The notes beneath the pieces were generated by a model, which was not told the origin of the DNA, made no database searches, and saw nothing but the letters and a program-made list of their open reading frames with translations. A program made the translations under genes and the position numbers. A stretch of DNA of 57,978 bases from Duncaniella sp. Lineage in GTDB: Bacteria > Bacteroidota > Bacteroidia > Bacteroidales > Muribaculaceae. The stretch is taken from contig JAMPEV010000003.1 in the NCBI GenBank assembly GCA_023664955.1, forward strand, positions 1 to 57,978. Reading direction: 5' to 3'. This document shows positions 2,527 through 50,193 of this stretch, piece by piece (positions within the stretch are counted from its first letter, which is position 1; each line of letters opens with the position of its first letter).

Positions 2527-3747
2527 TTATTCTTTTTCGGGGTCATCGTAAAATCCTTCATCATCAGCCACTTCATAGCCGCCGGCATCGTAGTCATCGT
2601 CATCTCCGTAGTCTTCATCGAAGTCATCGTCATATTCCTCATCGTCATTGCCGGGAGTGGGAACATTTTCAAAGATGAATTCATCCTCTTCTCGTACACG
2701 ATGATGGCCGTCGAGTGGACGGTGAGTGATTGGATTAACCTCGATGCGGTTACGCTCATCGGTGATTTCACCCCAAAGGATATCCTTCAAATCTGTTATT
2801 CCGTAGCCGGTTACAGCAGAGATAAACACATGAGGAATTCCCGCGGGCAGAGTTTTTTCCAACTCCTGCATGAGCTCATCGTCAAGCATATCACTCTTAG
2901 AGATGGCAAGGATGCGCGGCTTGTCGGCAAGTTGAGGATTGAATTGTTCGAGTTCGCGGACAAGAATGTCATATTGAGCCTTAATATCATCAGCATCAGC
3001 AGGAACCATAAACAATAGCACAGCGTTACGCTCGATATGGCGCAAGAATCGCAATCCCAAGCCCTTGCCTTCACTGGCTCCCTCGATAATACCGGGAATA
3101 TCTGCCATGACAAACGATTTGTCGCCTCGATAGGACACAATACCCAGTTGAGGCTCCATAGTGGTAAATGGATAGTCGGCAATCTTCGGTCGTGCGGCTG
3201 AAATTGCTGATAAAAGGGTAGATTTTCCGGCATTAGGGAATCCAACAAGACCGACATCGGCAAGCAGTTTCAACTCCAAAATGATACTCCTTTCAATGGC
3301 CGGTTCTCCAGGTTGGGCATAACGAGGAGTTCGGTTGGTGGCACTTTTGAAATGCCAATTGCCAAGGCCACCACGACCGCCGCGAAGCAATTTCACTTCT
3401 TCGCCATCGTAAGTAACTTCACAGAGGAATTCACCGGTTTCAGCGTCAAACACTACTGTGCCGCATGGAACGTCAACGATAACATCCTCACCATCCTTGC
3501 CAAACGACCTGCCGCCGGAGCCGCTTTGTCCATTCCCGGCAAAGATATGGCGACGATATCGTAATGGCAACAGTGTCCACATATGGCTATTGCCGCGAAG
3601 AATAATGTGTCCACCGCGGCCACCGTCACCCCCGTCCGGTCCACCTTTGGGGATATACTTTGCGCGATAGAAATGACGAGAGCCGGCACCACCTTTGCCA
3701 GAACGGCAAAGCACCTTTACATAGTCTATGAAGTTGGAATCAGCCAT
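2527..3747 (-). CDS. obgE: GTPase Obg/CgtA
   Basis: 406 aa. The Gly-rich Obg fold spans about 1-158 ([25 protein letters not shown]). It is followed by the GTPase domain with G1 GFPNAGKS, G3 DIPGI and a G4 that reads SKSD rather than NKxD, then SA(V)xG as G5. Obg proteins act in late 50S subunit maturation and stringent-response control. The C-terminal 60 residues are an Asp/Glu/Tyr-rich low-complexity tail ([15 protein letters not shown]) in place of an OCT domain. The start follows from the conserved N-terminal [17 protein letters not shown]. Confidence 0.96.
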
Positions 3748-18403: not shown

Positions 18404-20668
18404 TCATTGTCTAACCGGACGGACGAAAACACCGGAGCTTTTAGTGTATGTCACGTATGAGAATGAACTTCCGGAAACCCAAAATAGTGTTCCATTTTTT
18501 TCATTTGCCGGAGTGTTATACCAATAAGCAGACCAATTATTCTTGGATACTGCATTTTCTAAATATCTATCGATGGGACATTTGGTCGTAGCACTGTTGT
18601 CAGTCCCGGCAATTCGGCATATTGAGTATTTATTTACGTACCTGAGGAATACATAACTGCGGAATGTTTCCGGCTCGGGTATCCTCCATCCCGGAGGACA
18701 CGGGTCAAAGATGCTTTTATCCTTGGAACCCTTGGGGCATTTCGGGTCAGACCATATTATGTCGGTACGATCCGCAAATTGGGAGTTATAATCATCGTGG
18801 CCGTAATATACGGTGGTAGGATGCAACACCCCTTCATAAACCTTCACTTGCGCCTTTTTGAAATTAAAGAGGCCCAATCCACCCGAAGCAGCGGCTCCGG
18901 TAGTTCCATCATCCGTGAATTTATGAGTTATGGGATTGCCGTCTATGTCGTATAGTTGATTAAATGTTATAGGATCCTTACGGCCATAGTGGTAAATTAA
19001 ACCATTTCGGTTTTGCACATATTCGGTTCCTTCAGCCCCTAATGGACGGTCCATTACGAATTTATTCTTATACGTCGGGTTGTCGCCACCCCAAAGAGAT
19101 ATGTTGCCATCAACAGGTGCATACCTGTGGACTTCACCGTTCATTCTACTTGCCGTGTAGATATATTTACCGTCTTCCCAAGTTCCTTGGTAATCATCGG
19201 GGTTATAATCAGTGAGCCATAGATGCCAGCTCCATAGATATTCACCGGCTTTTGCCATCTTTAGCCTCACTCCAATCAGCACATTTCCTTTTTTAGAATG
19301 ATTTGCTTCGTCAGTTACGAAATACACTCTTGAAGAGGAACCTATGCCATGGAAAGTTTTCCCATCCTCAGAGGCGTAGCATTTGCCGTCGGGTGAACTG
19401 ACAAACTTAATTACCGGAGCATTGATGTCTTGCCATATCACCTCAGCGACCCATTCAGTTTCATCGGTGAGCGCGTGTCCGATGCGCTCCTCTTCATCCT
19501 CGACGTATTGAGAGTCATTCCAGAATTCATTGATGCGTTGAATGGGGAATGAGAACCTGCGTGAAGTGAAAGATGAGTTTATTATGTAGCTGTTGGCTGT
19601 GTCAAAATCTACCGGAGAGTAATCATACACCCTTGAGTCTAACGATTCTACACCGCAGTCTTCAATGGTCAGATTATATTTATACAGATTGTTGGGCTCG
19701 ATGTTGAAATCATTAATCAGGTTTGCCCCGAGGTAGAAACGGTAGACGAACATCACGTTGTCAGATATACGTTTAGCCGCTATGTCGAGATATGTAGCAT
19801 CATCCGGGGCATAATTGTTTTTCTGCCATGCGGAAACGTTTTGAGGGAATACGCCTCGTTTATTACGGCTAAGGTAATATGTGAGGGATGATGAGCCGCC
19901 TTCTGATACGCCACCGCCGAGATTATCCCATTCGTATTCCACCATCTTCTGATTATCAGTGTTCACGGTCAGTTCGTCGCCGGCAAGTAGGCGATCTGCA
20001 TATGCGATACGCGGAGCGACATTGCATAACTTTGCCTGTAAAATCTGCATTCCGGAGTTCACCTTATTGCTAATCGTTATCTCCACCTTAGCAACGTTGC
20101 GATAAAGAGTGCATATAAACCGGTCTATACCGTCGGAGTTGGTCACTTCGCCCTCTCCGTTCATCATCAATTCATAATTGTCAGAGCCGTCACTCACAAG
20201 GAGGTCTTTTTCCTCAGAGATTGTTTTATATAACCCTTTGAGCTGATTGATGTCAGATACCGATTTCAGATCATTGAATGATGGTTTAAAAGTGTTGGCA
20301 ATGACAAAGTATCTCACTTTGTACTCCTCGGAGCTTTTCATAATCTTCACTGTGGTGGAACCCTCCTTGGAGAGGTCGTAGTACACGGGAGAGCCTATGC
20401 GCTTGTTGTCCGGGCCGAATTGCAGTAGCCAAATGTCATGCGGCATATAATCAGTAGCCACACCTTCATCAATGTAGCGAGAGCCGGAGACCGTTTCAGT
20501 GGGGACTGACTGTGACATTAACTTTGCGGCAAAGGTTAAGGTGATTTCTTCGCCATGCGTCTCGTCCTGTTGTATATTTTTAATAATATCGTCATCGTTG
20601 CAGCTGCATATAGCTGTAGTCAATGCGATAAAGATTAAATGTTTAAATAGGTTGCTTATATTTACCAT
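18404..20668 (-). CDS. Fimbrial tip-like lipoprotein (DUF4906-type, FISUMP-like C-terminus)
   Basis: 754 aa. A lipoprotein signal ends in ALTTAICSC. The N-terminal part (TLTFAAKL, then FVIANTF, a RNVAKVEITISN strand) resembles fimbrillin-type DUF4906 proteins. The C-terminal 150 residues have the FDPCPPGWRIPEPETF motif and end in ...SSGVFVRPVRQ, the pattern of Fibrobacter-paralogous-like domains often found on Bacteroidales surface and pilus-tip proteins. It is last in the fimbrial operon and much the largest, which fits a tip adhesin. The binding target is unknown. Confidence 0.75.
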   Translation of the reverse strand: MVNISNLFKHLIFIALTTAICSCNDDDIIKNIQQDETHGEEITLTFAAKLMSQSVPTETVSGSRYIDEGVATDYMPHDIWLLQFGPDNKRIGSPVYYDLSKEGSTTVKIMKSSEEYKVRYFVIANTFKPSFNDLKSVSDINQLKGLYKTISEEKDLLVSDGSDNYELMMNGEGEVTNSDGIDRFICTLYRNVAKVEITISNKVNSGMQILQAKLCNVAPRIAYADRLLAGDELTVNTDNQKMVEYEWDNLGGGVSEGGSSSLTYYLSRNKRGVFPQNVSAWQKNNYAPDDATYLDIAAKRISDNVMFVYRFYLGANLINDFNIEPNNLYKYNLTIEDCGVESLDSRVYDYSPVDFDTANSYIINSSFTSRRFSFPIQRINEFWNDSQYVEDEEERIGHALTDETEWVAEVIWQDINAPVIKFVSSPDGKCYASEDGKTFHGIGSSSRVYFVTDEANHSKKGNVLIGVRLKMAKAGEYLWSWHLWLTDYNPDDYQGTWEDGKYIYTASRMNGEVHRYAPVDGNISLWGGDNPTYKNKFVMDRPLGAEGTEYVQNRNGLIYHYGRKDPITFNQLYDIDGNPITHKFTDDGTTGAAASGGLGLFNFKKAQVKVYEGVLHPTTVYYGHDDYNSQFADRTDIIWSDPKCPKGSKDKSIFDPCPPGWRIPEPETFRSYVFLRYVNKYSICRIAGTDNSATTKCPIDRYLENAVSKNNWSAYWYNTPANEKNGTLFWVSGSSFSYVTYTKSSGVFVRPVRQ

Positions 20669-20706: not shown

Positions 20707-21825
20707 CTAATATTTGTTGCTAATAGAGGTGTTGCCTGAATCACCGGGCGTACCTTGTCCCCATCCATTGATATTCCATGTGCCGAGATTGTATTCACCA
20801 GCGAGGCCGCTGTTGATTTCGGTTGAAATGCCGTCTATTACATTCCATGGTGAGATGACAAGCGTGAGTTGTATGATTTCGGATGATAGAAGCACTCTGT
20901 AACTGTATTCCAATCCCGGCTCCAAGGTCTCAAATAGGTTGTCGGTAAGGAGCAGACTCTGAGGGAGTTCTACGCCATTCTGATATACTGAGAAGTTTAG
21001 GTAAATGTAATCGGAACTTAGTGAGCTTGTCAGTGTATGAGGGGAGTATGTGGCCGACACTACATGCATATTGCCGGTTGTCTTCATGAGCTTGAAGTTC
21101 TTTCCTTCAAATGTTATTTCCTTGGCGGTTTCGGGGTCAATGAGAGTTATGGTTCGTATCCTGTGGGAGTCGTCAGTCACAACTCTGTTTGTAGGAAGGT
21201 GATACAGGACTTCGTTAAAGGTGCCGGCGTTGTGTAACTCCACATCCTTTATTGTGGCTCCGGTTTCCGTTGAAAATTCCGACAGCTGAAAGAAGTTAAC
21301 AATAAGTCGGCTTCTTCGGTTTTTCAATATGTCACCCGAAAAATCGAGAGGTGCATAATCCATAAGAGCGGCGTAGTAATGCTGGTTAGAAACATATAAA
21401 GGCACTTCGGGGTTTACTAAGAGACATCCATTGTTTGTGTTAATGTTGCACGCCGGTGATACGAGGTAGATTTTCACTTTCGTTAAATATTTGTGGAGAG
21501 CCTTTTCCCTGCACTCGGTTGTACCGGTGATTATGTTATTATTGCTGTCGTAGGTGATTTCAGCCGGGGTTAGGTTGTTGTCACCATCGGTTTTTATGAA
21601 ATATGTACCAGAGTCGTAATAAGCCCCGTCGGCATTACCGAATACGATGGCGCGGAATGATGTTCCGGAGGCAAGTTTTGTCCCGTTGTCAGACCTTGAC
21701 GGTATTGTTATGTCGATAATATCATCGTCACACCCCGGCTCCGCGGTACTGTCGGTCCCGCATCCTGTAAGTGAAAGGAGCGCTATAAGGTATGGAATTG
21801 TTTTGAAAACGGTAAATCTTCTCAT
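20707..21825 (-). CDS. Fimbrillin-like accessory lipoprotein
   Basis: 372 aa. Lipobox LLSLTGC. Beta-rich sequence with the late YSYRVLLSSEIIQLTLVISPWNVIDG motif typical of the last strands of Bacteroidales fimbrillins, followed by a Gly/Ser/Asn-rich C-terminus (GTPGDSGNTSISNKY). It is probably a minor pilus subunit. It starts 36 nt after the preceding gene and ends 38 nt before the tip-like gene. Confidence 0.7.
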   Translation of the reverse strand: MRRFTVFKTIPYLIALLSLTGCGTDSTAEPGCDDDIIDITIPSRSDNGTKLASGTSFRAIVFGNADGAYYDSGTYFIKTDGDNNLTPAEITYDSNNNIITGTTECREKALHKYLTKVKIYLVSPACNINTNNGCLLVNPEVPLYVSNQHYYAALMDYAPLDFSGDILKNRRSRLIVNFFQLSEFSTETGATIKDVELHNAGTFNEVLYHLPTNRVVTDDSHRIRTITLIDPETAKEITFEGKNFKLMKTTGNMHVVSATYSPHTLTSSLSSDYIYLNFSVYQNGVELPQSLLLTDNLFETLEPGLEYSYRVLLSSEIIQLTLVISPWNVIDGISTEINSGLAGEYNLGTWNINGWGQGTPGDSGNTSISNKY

Positions 21826-21861: not shown

Positions 21862-22893
21862 TTATATTATCAAATCTGACTTTTCAGTAGTACTCCATTC
21901 ACCTTCTTCGTCAATGGCTATGCCGTCAAAAGTGAATACATGGTCAAGCATGAGGTTATAGACATATTTCTTTCCTCGTTCAAGAGAAACTATCTTATTG
22001 CCGTCGGAGAAACTGAAGGGGAGAGTGTATTCCGTGGATAATTGTTGTTTATCTTCGGAATTTCTTTTTTGGTATGTAAGTTTGAATTTCAAGTCGCCTT
22101 CCTCCACGTTGTTTATTTCGGGGAAAATATACAGGAAAGAACTACCGCTTTTTATGAGATACAAGTTCCCCCCATAGGTCTGTTCAATCATACTTGCCTC
22201 CTCATCCGCTGTTATTTCTTTGGTCAATATATTTATATGCCCTTTTGTGACAATGCGGCTCTTACTATCGGAAAGAGTTACTTTAGTAACGTAGGGATAA
22301 GTTTCGTATTTAGTTCTTACGTTTATTTGTAGGCAGGTCATGATGTGGCTGAATTTCAGCGGCACAGTGATTTTGTCGTTAACACCGTTTGTCTGATTTG
22401 CTTTTACCAACACCTTGTCGCTTACGAGCCAGTCATCTGTCTTTGAAGTGTCGAAGGGGACTCTTTCAGGATTTACTGCTTCGTTGGTATAGGGATGGTA
22501 AGCATACACGTCATATGGAATGCCCGGCTGCACTGACAAAAAATTGTATATATAATCGTCAATGTTGTATTGCCAGGACGAATTAGTGCCGTCAGTGTTA
22601 TATTTTGCAAGGAAATTGATTAGTGATTCATTGTGTGGGTAGTGACTTTTGGTGGTGTCGTTGTCGACGAATCGATAAATGTAAACACCAAAATTGTAAG
22701 AACCTTTGGACAGTTTACCGTTGGAGCTGCTGACAGCTGCTCGTGTGCGTTCTGCTGTAGGGGCAATGATAGGATTCAGTTCAAGGTGTATGGACTCCGC
22801 CTCGTTGTAGTGTGGAGCTTCGGGCGTGTCAGAACAGCTGACAAAGGTCAGAGGCAGTATGATGGGAAGGATAAGTTTAATATAAAAATGCAT
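21862..22893 (-). CDS. Fimbrillin family (Mfa-like) lipoprotein
   Basis: 343 aa. Lipobox LTFVSC near residue 20. YNFGVYIYRF, KVLVKANQTNGVNDKITVPLKFSHIMTCLQINV (the FxH-hydrophobic strand typical of Mfa-like fimbrillins) and the final GKKYVYNLMLDHVFTFDGIAIDEEGEW are consistent with a two-domain transthyretin-like pilin. It starts only 3 nt after the upstream fimbrillin. Confidence 0.8.
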   Translation of the reverse strand: MHFYIKLILPIILPLTFVSCSDTPEAPHYNEAESIHLELNPIIAPTAERTRAAVSSSNGKLSKGSYNFGVYIYRFVDNDTTKSHYPHNESLINFLAKYNTDGTNSSWQYNIDDYIYNFLSVQPGIPYDVYAYHPYTNEAVNPERVPFDTSKTDDWLVSDKVLVKANQTNGVNDKITVPLKFSHIMTCLQINVRTKYETYPYVTKVTLSDSKSRIVTKGHINILTKEITADEEASMIEQTYGGNLYLIKSGSSFLYIFPEINNVEEGDLKFKLTYQKRNSEDKQQLSTEYTLPFSFSDGNKIVSLERGKKYVYNLMLDHVFTFDGIAIDEEGEWSTTEKSDLII

Positions 22894-22896
22894 GTG

Positions 22897-24012
22897 CTAA
22901 TAAATTGTTTCTTCTTTGTTTTCTATAATGATCCAATCGGTTAAGTTGCACACCAGTTCTTTTTCCACCGTGTTTATATTGATGGTGATATTAAGGGCTT
23001 GACCACCTTTGGCATTATTAATGCTTGATGTGTCAACATGGTAGTCAATTCCGTCAATGATTACATACATATTGTCGAGAACCCCGTCAACCGGGGGCAG
23101 GTATGCCACGCTATGAGATGTCTCGTTATGGTGTTCATTGTCGAGTTTTACATCAGCGGCAATCTTGATAGTGCTGTTGTCACCTTCGATGTAATCTTTG
23201 TCCCAACCGTCATTTGTGTCGAAGGTTTCAGTTGAATTACCGGGAAAAGTGTATGTGAACCTTCTTTTTGCTTTGTTAAAGACGATGTAGCTTACAGTTC
23301 CGGAATAGCCTGAATTGTTATCGGTGTGAAATTTCACAACGATTTTTTGAAGGAGATGCTTAAACACGAGTGGCACTTTGCCGTTATTTTGAGTTATGAT
23401 TGACTCTTTAGAAAATGGTTCTGTCGGGCCGGCAATGCGAATGTCGGTTTCACCGTCGGGTACAATCCGGATGGTGGCTGGCTTGTTTTTGTTGTAGCTG
23501 CTGACTGTCACCTGGCCGTTGCTGTGGGAAGAGTGGGGATACACACTGAGAAACCTTACGTGTGAGCCCTTTGTGCCGGGCCAATAGGCAGTCTCGCTTT
23601 CTTTTAGATATATCCATTGCCTACCAGTGTTGAGTATCAGAGCATTGTTGTACATTGTGTTAGGCGACGTTACACTTTCAGGTTCGGATTCGTAATTTTT
23701 TATTTCGTAGGCAAACACTCCGATTACGTCACCGGAATAAAATTCATTGTCGGATTTAACTTCTGAGGCGTCGCGTGAAGACAATTCACCCCATCCTTTT
23801 GTTGCGACTGAGCCGGAGAAGTCGATGGCAATCCTGCCGGCTGATGGATGTTCCGGCTCCACGGGAGGTGCATCCTGGTCGTTGCATGACACCATGAATG
23901 TTAAGAGAGCCATACTTATGACAACGCATGTCACACTGCGGAGTGTCCTAAAAATTTGTAATATTCCGCAGTGTGTTGTCGTGTTGAATTTATGCAACTT
24001 TATTGTCGTCAT
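22897..24012 (-). CDS. Fimbrillin family (Mfa-like) lipoprotein
   Basis: 371 aa. Long N-terminal segment before a hydrophobic stretch ending in the lipobox LTFMVSC. GDVIGVFAYEI, AYWPGTKGSHVRFLSVYP and VPLVFKHLLQKIVVKFH are standard fimbrillin-family blocks; the C-terminus ends with GQALNITININT...LTDWIIIENKEE. It is a second, divergent pilin-like subunit of the same operon. Confidence 0.82.
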   Translation of the reverse strand: MTTIKLHKFNTTTHCGILQIFRTLRSVTCVVISMALLTFMVSCNDQDAPPVEPEHPSAGRIAIDFSGSVATKGWGELSSRDASEVKSDNEFYSGDVIGVFAYEIKNYESEPESVTSPNTMYNNALILNTGRQWIYLKESETAYWPGTKGSHVRFLSVYPHSSHSNGQVTVSSYNKNKPATIRIVPDGETDIRIAGPTEPFSKESIITQNNGKVPLVFKHLLQKIVVKFHTDNNSGYSGTVSYIVFNKAKRRFTYTFPGNSTETFDTNDGWDKDYIEGDNSTIKIAADVKLDNEHHNETSHSVAYLPPVDGVLDNMYVIIDGIDYHVDTSSINNAKGGQALNITININTVEKELVCNLTDWIIIENKEETIY

Positions 24013-24062: not shown

Positions 24063-25121
24063 TCAATTTAATTCAGTCTCGCTCCAAGAGCTAATTGATG
24101 AGGTAAACTCTATAACATTAAGACTGACATTCAGAGTAACAGTATATGCTTTTCCCTTTGCTAAGGTTAAGTTCTGATCTTCACTTTCGGAGGGAAGTGG
24201 AAAGTTTTGCTCAATCACATTGTGCTGAGCTTCTCCCCATTGTTGACTCACTGTATAATAGACTTTTATCTTGGGTAAATTGCCATTATGAAAGGTCTGA
24301 GGAATAATCATCAAAAAGGAGTTATCACTATGGACACTTTGGGCGGTAGCGGTTAACGGGGTTTCATTGCCGGTGATGGTGAAGGTCCTGTTCTCGAGTG
24401 AGGCTTCAGCGGCGCTCCATAAATGGCTTTCATCGGAGTTGATAGGCAATGTTATTGTGCCTTCTTTGTAGAACGTTCCTGTCACTTCAATCTTTTCGAT
24501 TGTAACCGTAACGGAATTATATTGGCTTGCAGTCTTGGCTTTGAATCCGATTGCAGCAAGAGCATGCTTGAAGGCAAGATTTACATGACCATTAGAATCG
24601 GTATTTTTGGGGGTTTGATTCACGGCTTTTGCCCAAATCAGGTCAGTTTGCTTTGTCACATCATCATCCACTGTGAAGTTAAATTCATAACCGACAGTGT
24701 GTTTGGGACTTTCAGCGGTGTGGCTCATTTTTGTATAAGTCAAATTTGAATTGGCAGCGTTGGGTGTGTTTGGACCTATTGCAAAGAAGGAGACTTTGAT
24801 ATTTTCATCGTTTTCCCAGTATCTTAAATCATCATAAGTCCAGTTGCCGTCTTTCTGATAGACTTTCACGTTACTCATAAAACCGTCGCATTGGGTGTCT
24901 GAAGCCAAATTGCCGGTGTGTTGTGTCGCGAATACGAAGAATTGGTTGTGGTTGGCGGATGTGATTTTTTCGGCACGTGAAACGGGGCTGCGTCCGGTAT
25001 AAGCCTCGAATGAGATCACATCGCTGAATTCCTGAGCGGCCTTTGGCTCATCGTCCTGGGAGCAGCTGGTCAACATTACAGCGGAGACTGCAATCAAAAA
25101 AGAGAATTTGTTCATAATCAC
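24063..25121 (-). CDS. Fimbrillin family (Mfa-like) lipoprotein, probably a main shaft subunit
   Basis: 352 aa (an alternative start is Met3). Lipobox AVMLTSC. VISFEAYTGRSPVSRAEK at the start of the mature protein, YWENDENIKVSFFAIGP, HVNLAFKHALAAIGFKAK and the closing LTLAKGKAYTVTLNVSLNVIEF are typical of Bacteroidales major fimbrillins. It is the first pilin gene of the operon, which is why a shaft role is suggested (inference). Confidence 0.82.
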   Translation of the reverse strand: MIMNKFSFLIAVSAVMLTSCSQDDEPKAAQEFSDVISFEAYTGRSPVSRAEKITSANHNQFFVFATQHTGNLASDTQCDGFMSNVKVYQKDGNWTYDDLRYWENDENIKVSFFAIGPNTPNAANSNLTYTKMSHTAESPKHTVGYEFNFTVDDDVTKQTDLIWAKAVNQTPKNTDSNGHVNLAFKHALAAIGFKAKTASQYNSVTVTIEKIEVTGTFYKEGTITLPINSDESHLWSAAEASLENRTFTITGNETPLTATAQSVHSDNSFLMIIPQTFHNGNLPKIKVYYTVSQQWGEAQHNVIEQNFPLPSESEDQNLTLAKGKAYTVTLNVSLNVIEFTSSISSWSETELN

Positions 25122-25168
25122 AGATTTATATGTTTATTTGTTATTATTGTTTGCGTTGCGTTTTAATT

Positions 25169-26218
25169 TTATATGTACACATCCGCTTCGACTTCATCCC
25201 ATGGCGTTACTTTGCTGCTGAAACCGCCGGCATATTCTCCTTCCGGTACCACGTTGGGAAGCACAATTGGTTTTCCAAGGTCATCGAATTCGATATTAAT
25301 AGTTTCTTCGGCAACACCTTTGTGTATACAGTCACCGATGTGAAACGAATAGTCTACCACTGTCTTGTTGTCAACCAGCAGGAATGATATTGTAAGCACA
25401 TTATCCTCCGGGGAGCCAGAGTGACTTTCGGGCAGACCGAAGCAAGTGAATGTTGACTCAATGTATCCATTTGCGTGATTGTCATTGTCAATGCTCATCG
25501 TCCACTCTTCCACAAGGTGAGTTGCCTTTGTGTCAAGCCTTATTTTCCCCTTTAGTATGATACCTCCGGCCAGGCCGCTAACACCACCGCGGGCGGAACG
25601 AAGATTATATATGTTTTTGATATTGATTCTAACAGTTTTTTCACAGACGATGTTTTCCGGAGTTAATTCAGCAATCATAGTGCCGGTTGCTTCAGAGTCC
25701 TCTTGCTTCGATGTGATCGTCTTTTCGGCTGACACAATTATCCCGGTTGCCTCCGCCAGTGCCAGCCATTCTGGGTGATGAGCTGTGATTTCATCCTCGG
25801 AGCGAGACACATACCAGCGTGAGGTGAATCTTTCCGCCTCGATTCTGGCCCTATCGCGGTCGTATAAGTCGAAGAAATTGAATGTGCCGAATTCGATTTC
25901 GCTTTGGTTGAACACTACAATATCGTAAACTCCGGGGGATAGCTTAAGGTTTGCCCGGTGTGTGTTAGCTGAGATGTGTTTTATTGTTTCAACACTTGTT
26001 TGCGACGACGAAGGGTAGAGTAACAATGTCATTCCGGTGGGCTTCTCATGTCTTTCGAGCTCCGACCAATCCACATTGACGTATACAGTTGTGGTAGTAT
26101 CTAAATCGGAATCACGGCGATTGCAACTGCTAAGCAGCAGAATTGCAAGCAGTAATGAGAATTGAAAAAGAATGATGTTAGCTTTGGCTAAATGTGGTAT
26201 AGGAGCGATACCCCCCCC
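25169..26218 (-). CDS. DUF5119 fimbrial lipoprotein lacking an in-frame start (gated by a G9 tract?)
   Basis: The open frame begins just after an in-frame TAG at 26221-26219. It encodes a clear lipoprotein signal (IILFQFSLLLAILLLSSC, Cys codon at 26125) and a 318-aa mature protein matching DUF5119 (VYVNVDWSELERHEKPTGMTLLLYP, YDIVVFN, SARGGVSGLAGGI), a family found at the head of Bacteroidales fimbrial operons. No ATG, GTG or TTG lies between the stop and the signal peptide; the first conventional start is a GTG at 26074, which would delete signal and lipobox. A one-base-shorter G run would fuse the frame to the ORF starting at 26363. Other readings are an ATA start at 26200, a lost start codon, or a sequencing error in the run. 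Confidence 0.8.
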   Translation of the reverse strand, partial: GGGIAPIPHLAKANIILFQFSLLLAILLLSSCNRRDSDLDTTTTVYVNVDWSELERHEKPTGMTLLLYPSSSQTSVETIKHISANTHRANLKLSPGVYDIVVFNQSEIEFGTFNFFDLYDRDRARIEAERFTSRWYVSRSEDEITAHHPEWLALAEATGIIVSAEKTITSKQEDSEATGTMIAELTPENIVCEKTVRINIKNIYNLRSARGGVSGLAGGIILKGKIRLDTKATHLVEEWTMSIDNDNHANGYIESTFTCFGLPESHSGSPEDNVLTISFLLVDNKTVVDYSFHIGDCIHKGVAEETINIEFDDLGKPIVLPNVVPEGEYAGGFSSKVTPWDEVEADVYI

Positions 26219-26363
26219 CTAAAATATTAAAAGACAGTTTGTTATGGTGGTTGTGGTTGTTAATCGGATTTGAGGGTGGAAGGACGCAAGCATATAATTC
26301 CGTCATCAGGCCGGTGGCGAAAGAAGTTACAAAGTTACTATTGTGTTTGCGGTGTCCTAACAT
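26178..26363 (-). CDS. Leader ORF that runs into the G9 tract ahead of DUF5119
   Basis: 61 codons from an ATG about 50 nt after a good promoter. The peptide ends LSFNILGGGYRSYTTFSQS, with GGG encoded by the homopolymer. With one G fewer (or two more) the ribosome would leave the tract reading GGGIAPIPHLAKANIILF and enter the DUF5119 signal peptide. In the given sequence it stops at 26178. I do not recognise the N-terminal peptide itself; it may be a real extension of the lipoprotein or only translated leader. Confidence 0.45.
   Translation of the reverse strand: MLGHRKHNSNFVTSFATGLMTELYACVLPPSNPINNHNHHNKLSFNILGGGYRSYTTFSQS
26211..26219. repeat. Homopolymer C9 (G9 on the coding strand), candidate slippage tract
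   Basis: Nine consecutive C residues, the longest G/C run I noticed in the window, at the junction between the leader ORF and the frame of the DUF5119 lipoprotein. The two flanking frames differ by one base, so length changes of the run would switch them in or out of register. Confidence 0.8.
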
Positions 26364-26418
26364 AATGATTTAATTAAAAGGGCTCACGCATTTCATGGCA
26401 TAAGCGTGATGAATCGCA

Positions 26419-26450
26419 CAAATTTATGTCAATTTTCTATTAAATGCAAG
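26419..26450 (-). promoter_or_regulatory. Promoter of the fimbrial operon
   Basis: On the minus strand TAAATTTG (26426-26419) is a full match to the -7 TAnnTTTG box, with a TTG (26449-26447) 20 nt upstream as -33. Transcription would start near 26412. The leader begins with a small hairpin (TCACGC 26384-26389 / GCGTGA 26404-26409) and reaches the leader-ORF ATG at 26363. All six fimbrial genes follow with gaps of 3-50 nt and no obvious internal terminator. Confidence 0.65.
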
Positions 26451-26561
26451 AAATAATTAGAAAAACATCGTGATTTTAACTAAAACCCTCGAAAATGAAT
26501 AAGAAAATAGATGATTTGTAAGATTTATAAGATATATAAAAGATTTATAATTATTGTGATT

Positions 26562-26593
26562 TTTGGTAATGAGGCTTAAATGTTATATCTTTG
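26562..26593 (+). promoter_or_regulatory. Promoter of the GH43-DUF4450 operon
   Basis: TTTG at 26562-26565, 20 nt spacer, TATCTTTG at 26586-26593: a near-ideal Bacteroidota promoter, with start near 26600 and a 65-nt leader. Just upstream is a 10-nt direct repeat AGATTTATAA (26521-26530 and 26541-26550), two helical turns apart, a possible activator site. The divergent fimbrial promoter lies about 110 nt away. Confidence 0.7.
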
Positions 26594-26664
26594 CAAGTGA
26601 ATAGATTTCTCCATAATGGGCGAATATAGTAACCATTTCATTTTTTTTAGCAAAGGAATATAGT

Positions 26665-27723
26665 ATGAGAACATTGGTGAGATGCTGGATGCTGCTATTG
26701 GCGGCTATACCCGCAGTTAGCGTTTTTGCGCAAAATTTACAGAAAGGTGATTACGGCTACCTCTATTGCCACATGAGTGGGCGGGGGGAGTGGACGGCTT
26801 ATGCTCTAAGCCGTGACGGATTTAATTACCACGACCTCCTGAACGGCGATTCAATTTTCAGCGCGGCAGAGCATGCCAGGATTGAAGGAGGCACACGCGA
26901 TGCATATATCACACGCAGGCATGACGGCTCAGGCTATCTCATGGTTACTACTGATATGTGTGTGGCAAAGAGCCACAAGTGGCATAACTATGGTATCGAC
27001 CTTCTCCGCAGCGATGATCTCATCAACTGGGAGTCAGTCACATTCGACTTCCGCGACGGTGCCAAGATTTTCTCCGACCCTGAATCACCTGACACCTATA
27101 AGGACTATTCAACCATAGTGAGAGTGTGGGCACCACAGATTTTCTGGGACCCCAATTACGATTGGGGTAATGGCAAAAAAGGTGGTTATATGATTTACTA
27201 CTCACTCTGGAATCCCGAAGATGGTGAAGAGTATGACCGCATGTATTACTCCTACGCCGACGAATCATTCACAACATTGACAAAACCCAAATTGCTCTTC
27301 GACTGGGGATATGCCACCATCGATGCCGATATTAATTATCTTGAAAAGGATGGACTGTACCACATGATGATAAAGAAGGAGGGTGGTACACCGGGAATTT
27401 TCACCTCCACAGCACCCACTCTCCATGGTCCATGGAGCGAGCCTGACGAATCCGACTACGTAAACTTCGAGGGTAACAAGAAATGCGAAGGGGTTTCTGC
27501 ATTCCAGCTCGTGGGTGACCCCAACTGGTGCATCGCCTATATCGAATACTCCTCCAACCCAAAGCATTACCGTATATGCCGCGCCGATGAGTATATGAAA
27601 AACTTCCACGACCCGGTGGATATTAAAGGAGTAGATGCACCCCAGCATGGCTCATTCATGCGTCTTACCAAGGAGGAATATGACCGTCTTGAAAAGTGGG
27701 CTGCAGAGAAGGGCAAGAAATAA
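26665..27723 (+). CDS. Secreted glycoside hydrolase family 43 enzyme
   Basis: 352 aa. Signal peptide 1-22 ending SVFAQ. The propeller starts GYLYCHMSGRGEWTAYALSRDGFNYHDLLNGD. Likely catalytic residues are Asp79 (GGTRDAYITRR), Asp222 (TIDADINYLEKDGLYHMMIKKE) and Glu275 (NKKCEGVSAFQL), in the order expected for GH43. Most relatives with this N-terminus act on arabinose-containing side chains, but the substrate is not determined. It ends 101 nt before the DUF4450 gene and is likely co-transcribed with it. Confidence 0.85.
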   Translation: MRTLVRCWMLLLAAIPAVSVFAQNLQKGDYGYLYCHMSGRGEWTAYALSRDGFNYHDLLNGDSIFSAAEHARIEGGTRDAYITRRHDGSGYLMVTTDMCVAKSHKWHNYGIDLLRSDDLINWESVTFDFRDGAKIFSDPESPDTYKDYSTIVRVWAPQIFWDPNYDWGNGKKGGYMIYYSLWNPEDGEEYDRMYYSYADESFTTLTKPKLLFDWGYATIDADINYLEKDGLYHMMIKKEGGTPGIFTSTAPTLHGPWSEPDESDYVNFEGNKKCEGVSAFQLVGDPNWCIAYIEYSSNPKHYRICRADEYMKNFHDPVDIKGVDAPQHGSFMRLTKEEYDRLEKWAAEKGKK

Positions 27724-49071: not shown

Positions 49072-50193
49072 ATGAGTTTATCTTCAATATCTCGTCCATT
49101 TACTTTCGATAGAGTAGTGCGCATAATTATCGGCATAAGCCTGATTCTGGGTGCTGTATGGCTGGTTAACATTCTTAGCAATGTCCTCTTGCCATTCTGT
49201 TTGGCATGTCTCATTGCTTATATTCTTGAGCCATTCCTTGAATTTAACCAGCGACTGCTTCACCTGAAAGGGCGTGTGTTGGTGACTTTCATAACTCTTT
49301 TTGAGGTGGCTTTCTTCATTGTAGTGATTGCCTATTTGTTCCTGCCGTCCGTAATTGATGAAATTCACCAGATGGAGGATATGATAAAAGCTTATACCGG
49401 AACTGATTATGCTCCATTGCTTCCCAAGGAGGTTCATGAGTACATCACTGAGCATTTGAATACTGATAAATTTCAGGAACTTCTAAGCGGGCAGCATATT
49501 GGTGCGATTTTGAATAAGGGTACTTCTCTTATCACCCAGACTATCGACTTTATACTCCACACCTTAGAATGGTTTTTGACCTTCATCTATGTAATTTTCA
49601 TAATGATTGACTATAAGCGGCTTATGCGTGGATTTCGTATGCTTGTCCCGCCGAAGTACCGCCCGATTGCTTATAAGGTGGGCGATGATATCAAGTCGAG
49701 CATGAACCGTTATTTCCGTGGTCAGGCTATTCTGGCACTCTGTGCGGCTGTATTCTATTGTATCGGGTTTTCAATCGTTGGCATTCCACTCGCAATCGTG
49801 TTGGGAATCCTCGTCGGAATATTGTATATGATACCTTACTTCCAGTATATCACTGTGATACCGGTGGCATTGGTGTGTTTCCTATATTCGTTGGGGGGGA
49901 CTGAGAGCTTTTGGTCGCTTTTGGGAAAGTGTGGACTCGTATACGTGGTGAGCCAGTGTATATGTGATTATATTCTCACGCCGAAGATTATGGGAAAAGC
50001 GATGGGATTGAATCCGGCTATAATTCTGTTATCACTTTCAGTGTGGGGTACGCTTTTGGGGCTTATCGGCATGATTATCGCTTTACCGCTCACTACATTG
50101 CTGTTGGCTTATTATGAGGAATATGTGATCGGGGATAATGATGATGATGTTATGCCGGTTATTCCTAACAGGAAAACGGCCAAAAGCTCTTGA
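49072..50193 (+). CDS. AI-2E family transporter (PF01594)
   Basis: 373 aa from the ATG at 49072; the much longer upstream frame overlaps the divergent GDPD gene and is not conserved. About seven to eight membrane segments surround a large soluble region (IDEIHQMEDMIKAYTG...). The block GIPLAIVLGILVGILYMIPYFQ and ICDYILTPKIMGKAMGLNPAIILLSL are PF01594 signatures. Despite the name, members export varied small molecules or ions; the substrate is unknown. Confidence 0.92.
   Translation: MSLSSISRPFTFDRVVRIIIGISLILGAVWLVNILSNVLLPFCLACLIAYILEPFLEFNQRLLHLKGRVLVTFITLFEVAFFIVVIAYLFLPSVIDEIHQMEDMIKAYTGTDYAPLLPKEVHEYITEHLNTDKFQELLSGQHIGAILNKGTSLITQTIDFILHTLEWFLTFIYVIFIMIDYKRLMRGFRMLVPPKYRPIAYKVGDDIKSSMNRYFRGQAILALCAAVFYCIGFSIVGIPLAIVLGILVGILYMIPYFQYITVIPVALVCFLYSLGGTESFWSLLGKCGLVYVVSQCICDYILTPKIMGKAMGLNPAIILLSLSVWGTLLGLIGMIIALPLTTLLLAYYEEYVIGDNDDDVMPVIPNRKTAKSS

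Follow-up and report, generated by a model that had tools for sequence, protein, structure and literature searches.

Organization of the fimbrial locus

The window, by which we mean the whole stretch of 57,978 bases analysed here, belongs to a 2.18-Mb draft genome that comprises 21 contigs and is 82.7% complete. Its minus strand carries an operon that consists, by gene order, of six genes: DUF5119, three clear and one weak Mfa_like_1 gene, and DUF4906 (Table 1). Signal peptides and lipoboxes are present in the Mfa-like genes, as identified by eye in the translations, and mark the operon as type V fimbrial. A housekeeping protein of the window shows at most 78% identity to named relatives among its best 80 matches. 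The top match and many more bear the label Muribaculaceae, with labels such as Bacteroides sp. or Porphyromonadaceae interspersed. No close relative of the locus was found, the best DUF5119 relatives being ~35% identical, and a scan of named genomes with the DUF5119 protein of the window, which may omit its own and very near genomes, returned nothing. A DUF5119 profile search against the PDB retrieved 5cag_A (E 3.5e-19), an uncharacterised protein and the sole solved relative above the threshold; one further match was at chance level, and literature searches for 5CAG listed no paper on it. A role of DUF5119 as pilus anchor, proposed from the sequence alone, gains no support from this homology to one uncharacterised solved structure.

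Table 1. Features of the fimbrial operon and its upstream region, in window coordinates
Feature	Position	Strand	Details
Bacteroidota-type promoter, TTG - 20 bp - TAAATTTG	26419..26449	-	TTG at 26449, TAAATTTG at 26426-26419
61-aa ORF through G9, candidate leader or N-terminal extension	26178..26363	-	ATG 26363, internal ATG 26306
In-frame TAG closing the DUF5119 frame at G9	26219..26221	-	Frame inspection
G9 homopolymer, then TA	26211..26219	-	Reads C9 on the plus strand
DUF5119 lipoprotein frame	25169..26218	-	PF17145, E 2.9e-28; without a standard start before the signal peptide
Mfa_like_1 fimbrillin-like	24063..25121	-	E 7.8e-25
Mfa_like_1 fimbrillin-like	22897..24012	-	E 1e-14
Mfa_like_1 fimbrillin-like	21862..22893	-	E 4.9e-19
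Weak Mfa_like_1 match	20707..21825	-	E 0.0013, 19.3 bits, family cut-off 27
DUF4906 protein, last operon gene	18404..20668	-	E 1.8e-11

The G9 homopolymer is the sole G/C run of at least eight in the window, which also holds one G7 at 49893. On the minus strand, it is located between a Bacteroidota-type promoter and the DUF5119 signal peptide, in the order promoter, ATG 26363, G9 and the stop at 26178, and the DUF5119 frame overlaps the candidate leader ORF. The coordinates and frame arithmetic given by a sequence-only reading of this DNA for the tract, the 61-aa ORF, the TAG and the stop were all correct. Its claim that the DUF5119 frame offers no standard start codon was also borne out by frame inspection: between the TAG and the lipobox (LLLSSC by eye, with the Cys codon at 26125-26123), ATG, GTG and TTG are all absent, and the codon at 26200 is ATA. 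ATG 26363 and ATG 26306 share one frame, which neighbours that of DUF5119, and are the only start codons open into the G9; neither the third frame nor the DUF5119 frame has one. The tract is a homopolymer of at least eight whose length sets the frame of a start codon relative to the DUF5119 gene, as in tracts of the coding type. The leader ORF has a weak codon score of 0.045, whereas the DUF5119 body reaches 0.388 and the two remaining frames of the leader score -0.35 and -0.58; this ORF was open by chance in 12% of simulations.

The same reading had placed a consensus promoter before ATG 26363, and we agree: TTG - 20 bp - TAAATTTG fits the Bacteroidota promoter consensus. An E. coli-type promoter scan of positions 25000-27000 gave 4 sites, where 4.1 were expected, and the Bacteroidota-type promoter was not among them. 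A second -7-like TAnnTTTG, TAACTTTG, is found at window positions 26337-26330, between the two ATG codons.

Poly-G tracts at the heads of related operons

A protein search identified DUF5119 relatives in 7 of 27 genomes of the genus and, at E <= 1e-20, in 12 of 397 genomes of the family, the source genome being included in both counts; from the labels on the housekeeping-protein matches, we take this family to be Muribaculaceae. Seven of 16 larger loci have a tract of at least eight at the head of the operon (L064, L068, L069, L072, L074, L076 and L077), and the other nine have no tract of this length. A set chosen independently of tracts was formed from the PF17145 matches, 113 in 62 of 118 family genomes. 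Four loci with too little flank were dropped, leaving 109, eight of which belong to the 16 above. A G/C tract of at least eight occurs in 22 of these 109 loci and is missing from the remaining 87, with some flanks ending at contig edges.

The tracts at the heads of relatives' DUF5119 operons are 8-12 long, come from several genera and lie in promoters or in the first gene. Sorted by eye, nine of the 22 have an exact TAnnTTTG 19-31 bp past the tract and before the first gene of the operon (L064, L068, L082, L099, L115, L137, L149, L154 and L159), and L072, with a single mismatch in this box, is a tenth promoter-type case. Seven are located in the gene before DUF5119 or in its leader (L098, L103, L145, L146, L156, L166 and the window), and five are elsewhere or could not be sorted (L081, L086, L131, L133 and L175). 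The tract is read through in frame in L098, L103, L145, L146 and L166 but not in L156. In the fimbrial head genes of L076 (C8), L077 (C9) and L027 (C9), the tract is placed 9-13 codons past the start, before a signal peptide recognized by eye. A heuristic frame test found 19 frames in frame through the tract and 6 not, with the window, as L009, among the 6. In L086, a C10 at about 3498-3507 coincides with a break in the frame of a regulator, AraC-like as judged by eye, ~2 kb upstream of a DUF5119 gene.

With the window excluded, the regions around operon heads make up 4.7% of the bases but contain 9 of the relatives' 21 tracts (P = 1.9e-7). The rule used to call heads was simple and failed in some loci, and three of the nine (L081, L131 and L133) are ones that we count as unclear by eye. 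The total number of G/C runs of at least eight in the family loci is 21, within the range of 10-24 from 20 first-order Markov simulations, and an overall excess of long runs was accordingly dropped as evidence. Since the total does not rise above expectation, a run alone proves nothing; the telling feature is the position of the tracts around operon heads, and we give weight to placement and flanks, not to the run count. By length, the counts are 81 runs of six, 14 of seven, 7 of eight, 7 of nine, 6 of ten and 1 of twelve, that is, a plateau rather than a fall.

The sequence-only reading had also pointed to relatives with an ATG and no tract as evidence against a switch. This is borne out in part: in each of the 14 homologues inspected, an ATG stands either upstream of the signal peptide or at it, and no tract immediately precedes the signal peptide. 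However, in most of them DUF5119 is behind another operon gene instead of heading the operon, and any tract is at the operon head.

Promoter-type tracts in Muribaculaceae

Among 103 distinct G8-12 tracts in the fetched family loci, 22 have TAnnTTTG on the G side at a downstream distance of 18-21 or 29-31 bp and 1 has it on the C side, whereas shuffling gave a mean of 0.47 and a maximum of 4. The P value of this G-side excess, 1.8e-6, is not a clean test, because the distance classes were set after the histogram and L078-L080 came from a search with the promoter pattern. A TTAA repeat directly precedes the tract in 14 of the 22 loci with TAnnTTTG, compared with 3 of the 81 others. A whole-genome scan is the cleaner test: G8-N18-20-TAnnTTTGC is present in 91 of 226 family genomes, covering 20 of 26 genera, and the reversed pattern in 0. 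Across the order, the same pattern was found in 7 of 295 genomes, including 3 of the 5 family genomes in the draw, and the control gave five matches in four genomes, all outside the family. This pattern replaced a stricter one with -33 and -7 boxes, which was too strict for a survey (3 of 198 family genomes, control 0). From these counts, poly-G promoters look common within Muribaculaceae.

Thirty loci (L309-L338) were taken from the family scan by the promoter pattern, of which the TTAA boxes are not part. Their tracts are 8-11 long, and in 26 of the 30 two TTAA boxes 10-12 bp apart, TTAAC-like and separated by one helical turn, precede the tract. In the 27 loci where the distance could be measured, 33-40 bp separate the proximal box from the -7 box, with a mode of 37, and this total distance varies somewhat less than independent parts would (permutation P = 0.037). 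Pfam matches among 27 proteins behind such promoters comprise BspA-type LRR (3), DUF3575 (2), glycosyl hydrolase 8 (2) and autotransporter barrel (2), and single cases include a TonB plug, an OmpA domain, a citrate transporter and an AraC-type regulator. By eye, most of the 27 start like secreted proteins. At L023, positions 1500-2269, poly-G promoter units with G10, G9 and G7 are nearly repeated ~310 bp apart.

The source genome contains 15 G9 match starts, which correspond to 10 distinct G/C tracts of at least nine in 2.18 Mb. One is inside an open acyltransferase-like gene (L003) and three are upstream of secreted or SusC-like genes (L002, L021 and L022), all labelled by eye. At L001, positions 1501-1509, a C9 occurs where two overlapping open frames meet, and at E 1e-4 no Pfam family matches the downstream portion. 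The source genome holds no match to the 18-20 bp poly-G promoter pattern; a 30-bp form is present at L022, in front of another gene. At the G9 of the window, the layout of Bordetella fim promoters is not found, as no TAnnTTTG occurs 18-31 bp after the tract. A promoter-type reading of this G9 was therefore dropped, since both that -7 box and a TTAAC repeat before the tract are absent at the right distance.

Tract lengths, tract genes and the TA flank

Two contigs of the relative G010, L076 and L077, are 97.9% identical over 15,142 nt and differ by three 1-nt indels, one of which is the C8 versus C9 tract early in the fimbrial head gene. The two lengths fit different ATG codons, each being in frame with one of them, as in Haemophilus lic1A. 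The difference may reflect a mixed-strain assembly, because 207 columns of this alignment hold N. Corresponding fimbrial promoter tracts across species read G9 in L068, G10 in L069, G9 in L072 and G8 in L080. Two relatives have a G9 (L040, 1501-1509, minus strand) and a G10 (L041, about 182-191) close to the 5' ends of corresponding genes. These genes resemble type III DNA methylases by eye, which makes them a candidate phasevarion in Muribaculaceae.

Of 76 genus tracts of at least nine, chosen only by G9 and from the fetched part of a longer list, 64 were given a gene. Assignment was by the longest frame and favours long genes such as SusC; with this bias, the set contains TonB plug (16), DUF3575 (4), acyltransferase-3 (4), autotransporter barrel (3) and DNA methylase (N6_N4_Mtase, 2). 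Phase-variable gene sets usually have a similar make-up.

The dinucleotide TA directly follows 73 of 104 distinct tracts of 8-12, many from loci fetched because they hold a G9, compared with 5.5-6.7% of runs of 3-6 and 3 of 19 sevens. This flank occurs with G as well as with C on the gene strand. At L204, positions 1501-1509, an ATG is followed by a G9 with an immediate TAA, ahead of a signal peptide that appears SusC-like by eye. G9-TAA was tried as a signature across Bacteroidales and dropped: it is present in 66 of 198 order genomes, but the reversed control matches many too, so no conclusion is drawn outside the family.

Interpretation of the G9 tract

The G9 of the window is probably a slippage frame switch of the coding or leader type at the head of a type V fimbrial operon. 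Transcription would begin from the promoter near 26419 and translation from ATG 26363 or ATG 26306. Slippage during replication would alter the length of the G9 and thereby decide whether the leader frame enters the DUF5119 lipoprotein, and the downstream operon genes might also drop by polarity. The assembled state is read as OFF for DUF5119, because at nine Gs the leader frame misses it. The frames, the promoter match and the recurrence, placing and differing lengths of tracts at the heads of related operons are observed; slippage at this tract, use of the leader start, the present loss of DUF5119 and the effects downstream are what we infer. Its recurrent placing in such operons, the positions of promoter and ATG, the TA flank and the pre-signal-peptide tracts of relatives make a switch probable. 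The homopolymer switch proposed from the sequence alone thus gains from relatives, whose head tracts range from 8 to 12 and differ in length between orthologues and between near-identical contigs, although the 14 homologues with an ATG and no tract do not bear it out. An odd feature is that the leader would place ~60 residues ahead of the signal peptide, whereas other N-terminal fimbrial tracts are 9-32 codons from the ATG; this counts against a frame switch, as do the weak codon score and 12% chance openness of the leader, the missing promoter layout at the G9, the 87 of 109 DUF5119 loci that have no tract and a total of long runs no higher than the Markov expectation.

Four other explanations bear on the same evidence. 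DUF5119 might start at ATA 26200 or ATC 26209 and always be made, with the G9 an incidental part of a long 5' UTR. With ATA 26200 as the start codon, the signal peptide would be compact and of normal length, with a lysine ahead of the hydrophobic stretch, and such a start would be in line with the ordinary starts of the 14 homologues upstream of or at the signal peptide. We nevertheless consider it unlikely: it implies a 5' leader of ~210 nt, bacteria very rarely use ATA or ATC as start codons, and tracts recur at the heads of such operons above expectation. The ATA codon, which stands where an ATG would suit, could also be a lost start, and the frame has no standard in-frame start, as would be expected of a DUF5119 gene that is an early pseudogene in this strain. 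Decay of this kind seems very improbable, since the remaining ~340 codons are open, as are the five downstream genes, and the codon score of the DUF5119 body is normal (0.388, compared with -0.34 and -0.44).

There is a similarly slight chance that the assembly miscalled the length of the G9 and that DUF5119 is an intact gene whose product is extended at the N-terminus. Errors are frequent in homopolymers and the genome is an incomplete draft, but several other genomes carry tracts at corresponding places, in frame or not, and the tract would be slippage-prone even then. Finally, the G9 could act on RNA, through leader structure or short-ORF coupling, or on transcription instead of on the frame. 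Judged by eye from their positions, 10 of the 22 tracts at DUF5119 loci, all ten in relatives, would act on a promoter; the G9 of the window, which has neither the -7 box after it nor the TTAAC repeat before it, does not share their layout, and we rate this explanation as very improbable.

Collectively, the tracts could be read as a family-wide system of poly-G switches in Muribaculaceae, unlike inversion, and we see the case for this broader proposal as evenly balanced. It would include two types. In the promoter type, a variable G8-12 followed by TA would have a pair of TTAAC boxes, spaced by one helical turn, on one side and a -7 box on the other, and slippage would alter the spacing of an activator. 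Tracts of the other type would sit early in the coding sequence of surface, fimbrial and DNA-methylase genes, and the tract of the window would be a coding or leader member of the system. If this is true, plain slippage is a means by which a common gut family varies fimbriae, outer-membrane receptors and DNA methylases, some of the variation in Muribaculaceae escapes scans for invertible DNA, and existing short-read metagenomes can be read for the ON and OFF states of host-facing structures. The proposal would also offer a promoter architecture whose activator can be sought.

Comparison with known systems

The sequence-only reading had called a homopolymer switch unusual for Bacteroidales. This agrees with the relevant passages of two reviews: those of one speak of inversion for Bacteroides (PMC11868660), and the words "slipped" and "homopolymer" occur 0 times in the other (PMC12632263). 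Within Muribaculaceae, however, poly-G promoters look common (91/226). Among the open-licence papers listed, none had a title or abstract opening that describes phase variation by homopolymers or slipped strands for Bacteroidales or Muribaculaceae. Switching by slippage is already known as a kind, and as a Muribaculaceae system it looks new.

The closest layout to the promoter type is that of fim2 and fim3 in Bordetella pertussis, for which the relevant passages of PMC10172299 describe single-base changes in a promoter poly(C) that switch the fimbrial genes, the length of the homopolymer setting the fit between BvgA and RNA polymerase. The layout of the Muribaculaceae promoters, with a repeat, a homopolymer and a -7 box, is comparable. 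The Bordetella genes belong to another phylum and another pilus type, however, and the Muribaculaceae promoters have G on the coding strand and a putative activator. The window differs further, as its G9 is not in the promoter. In contingency loci of Neisseria, Campylobacter and Haemophilus, the frame of a surface gene is set by a homopolymer close to its 5' end; compared with these, the leader in the window is unusually long. The invertible promoters of Bacteroidales, which control fimbriae, capsules and SusC, vary the same kinds of genes, but by recombinase inversion rather than slippage. With the type V (Mfa/FimA) pili of Bacteroidota, the operon shares Mfa_like_1 fimbrillins, a lipoprotein at the operon head and a DUF4906 protein, and it lacks the DUF3575-like gene that, by eye, often precedes DUF5119 in relatives.
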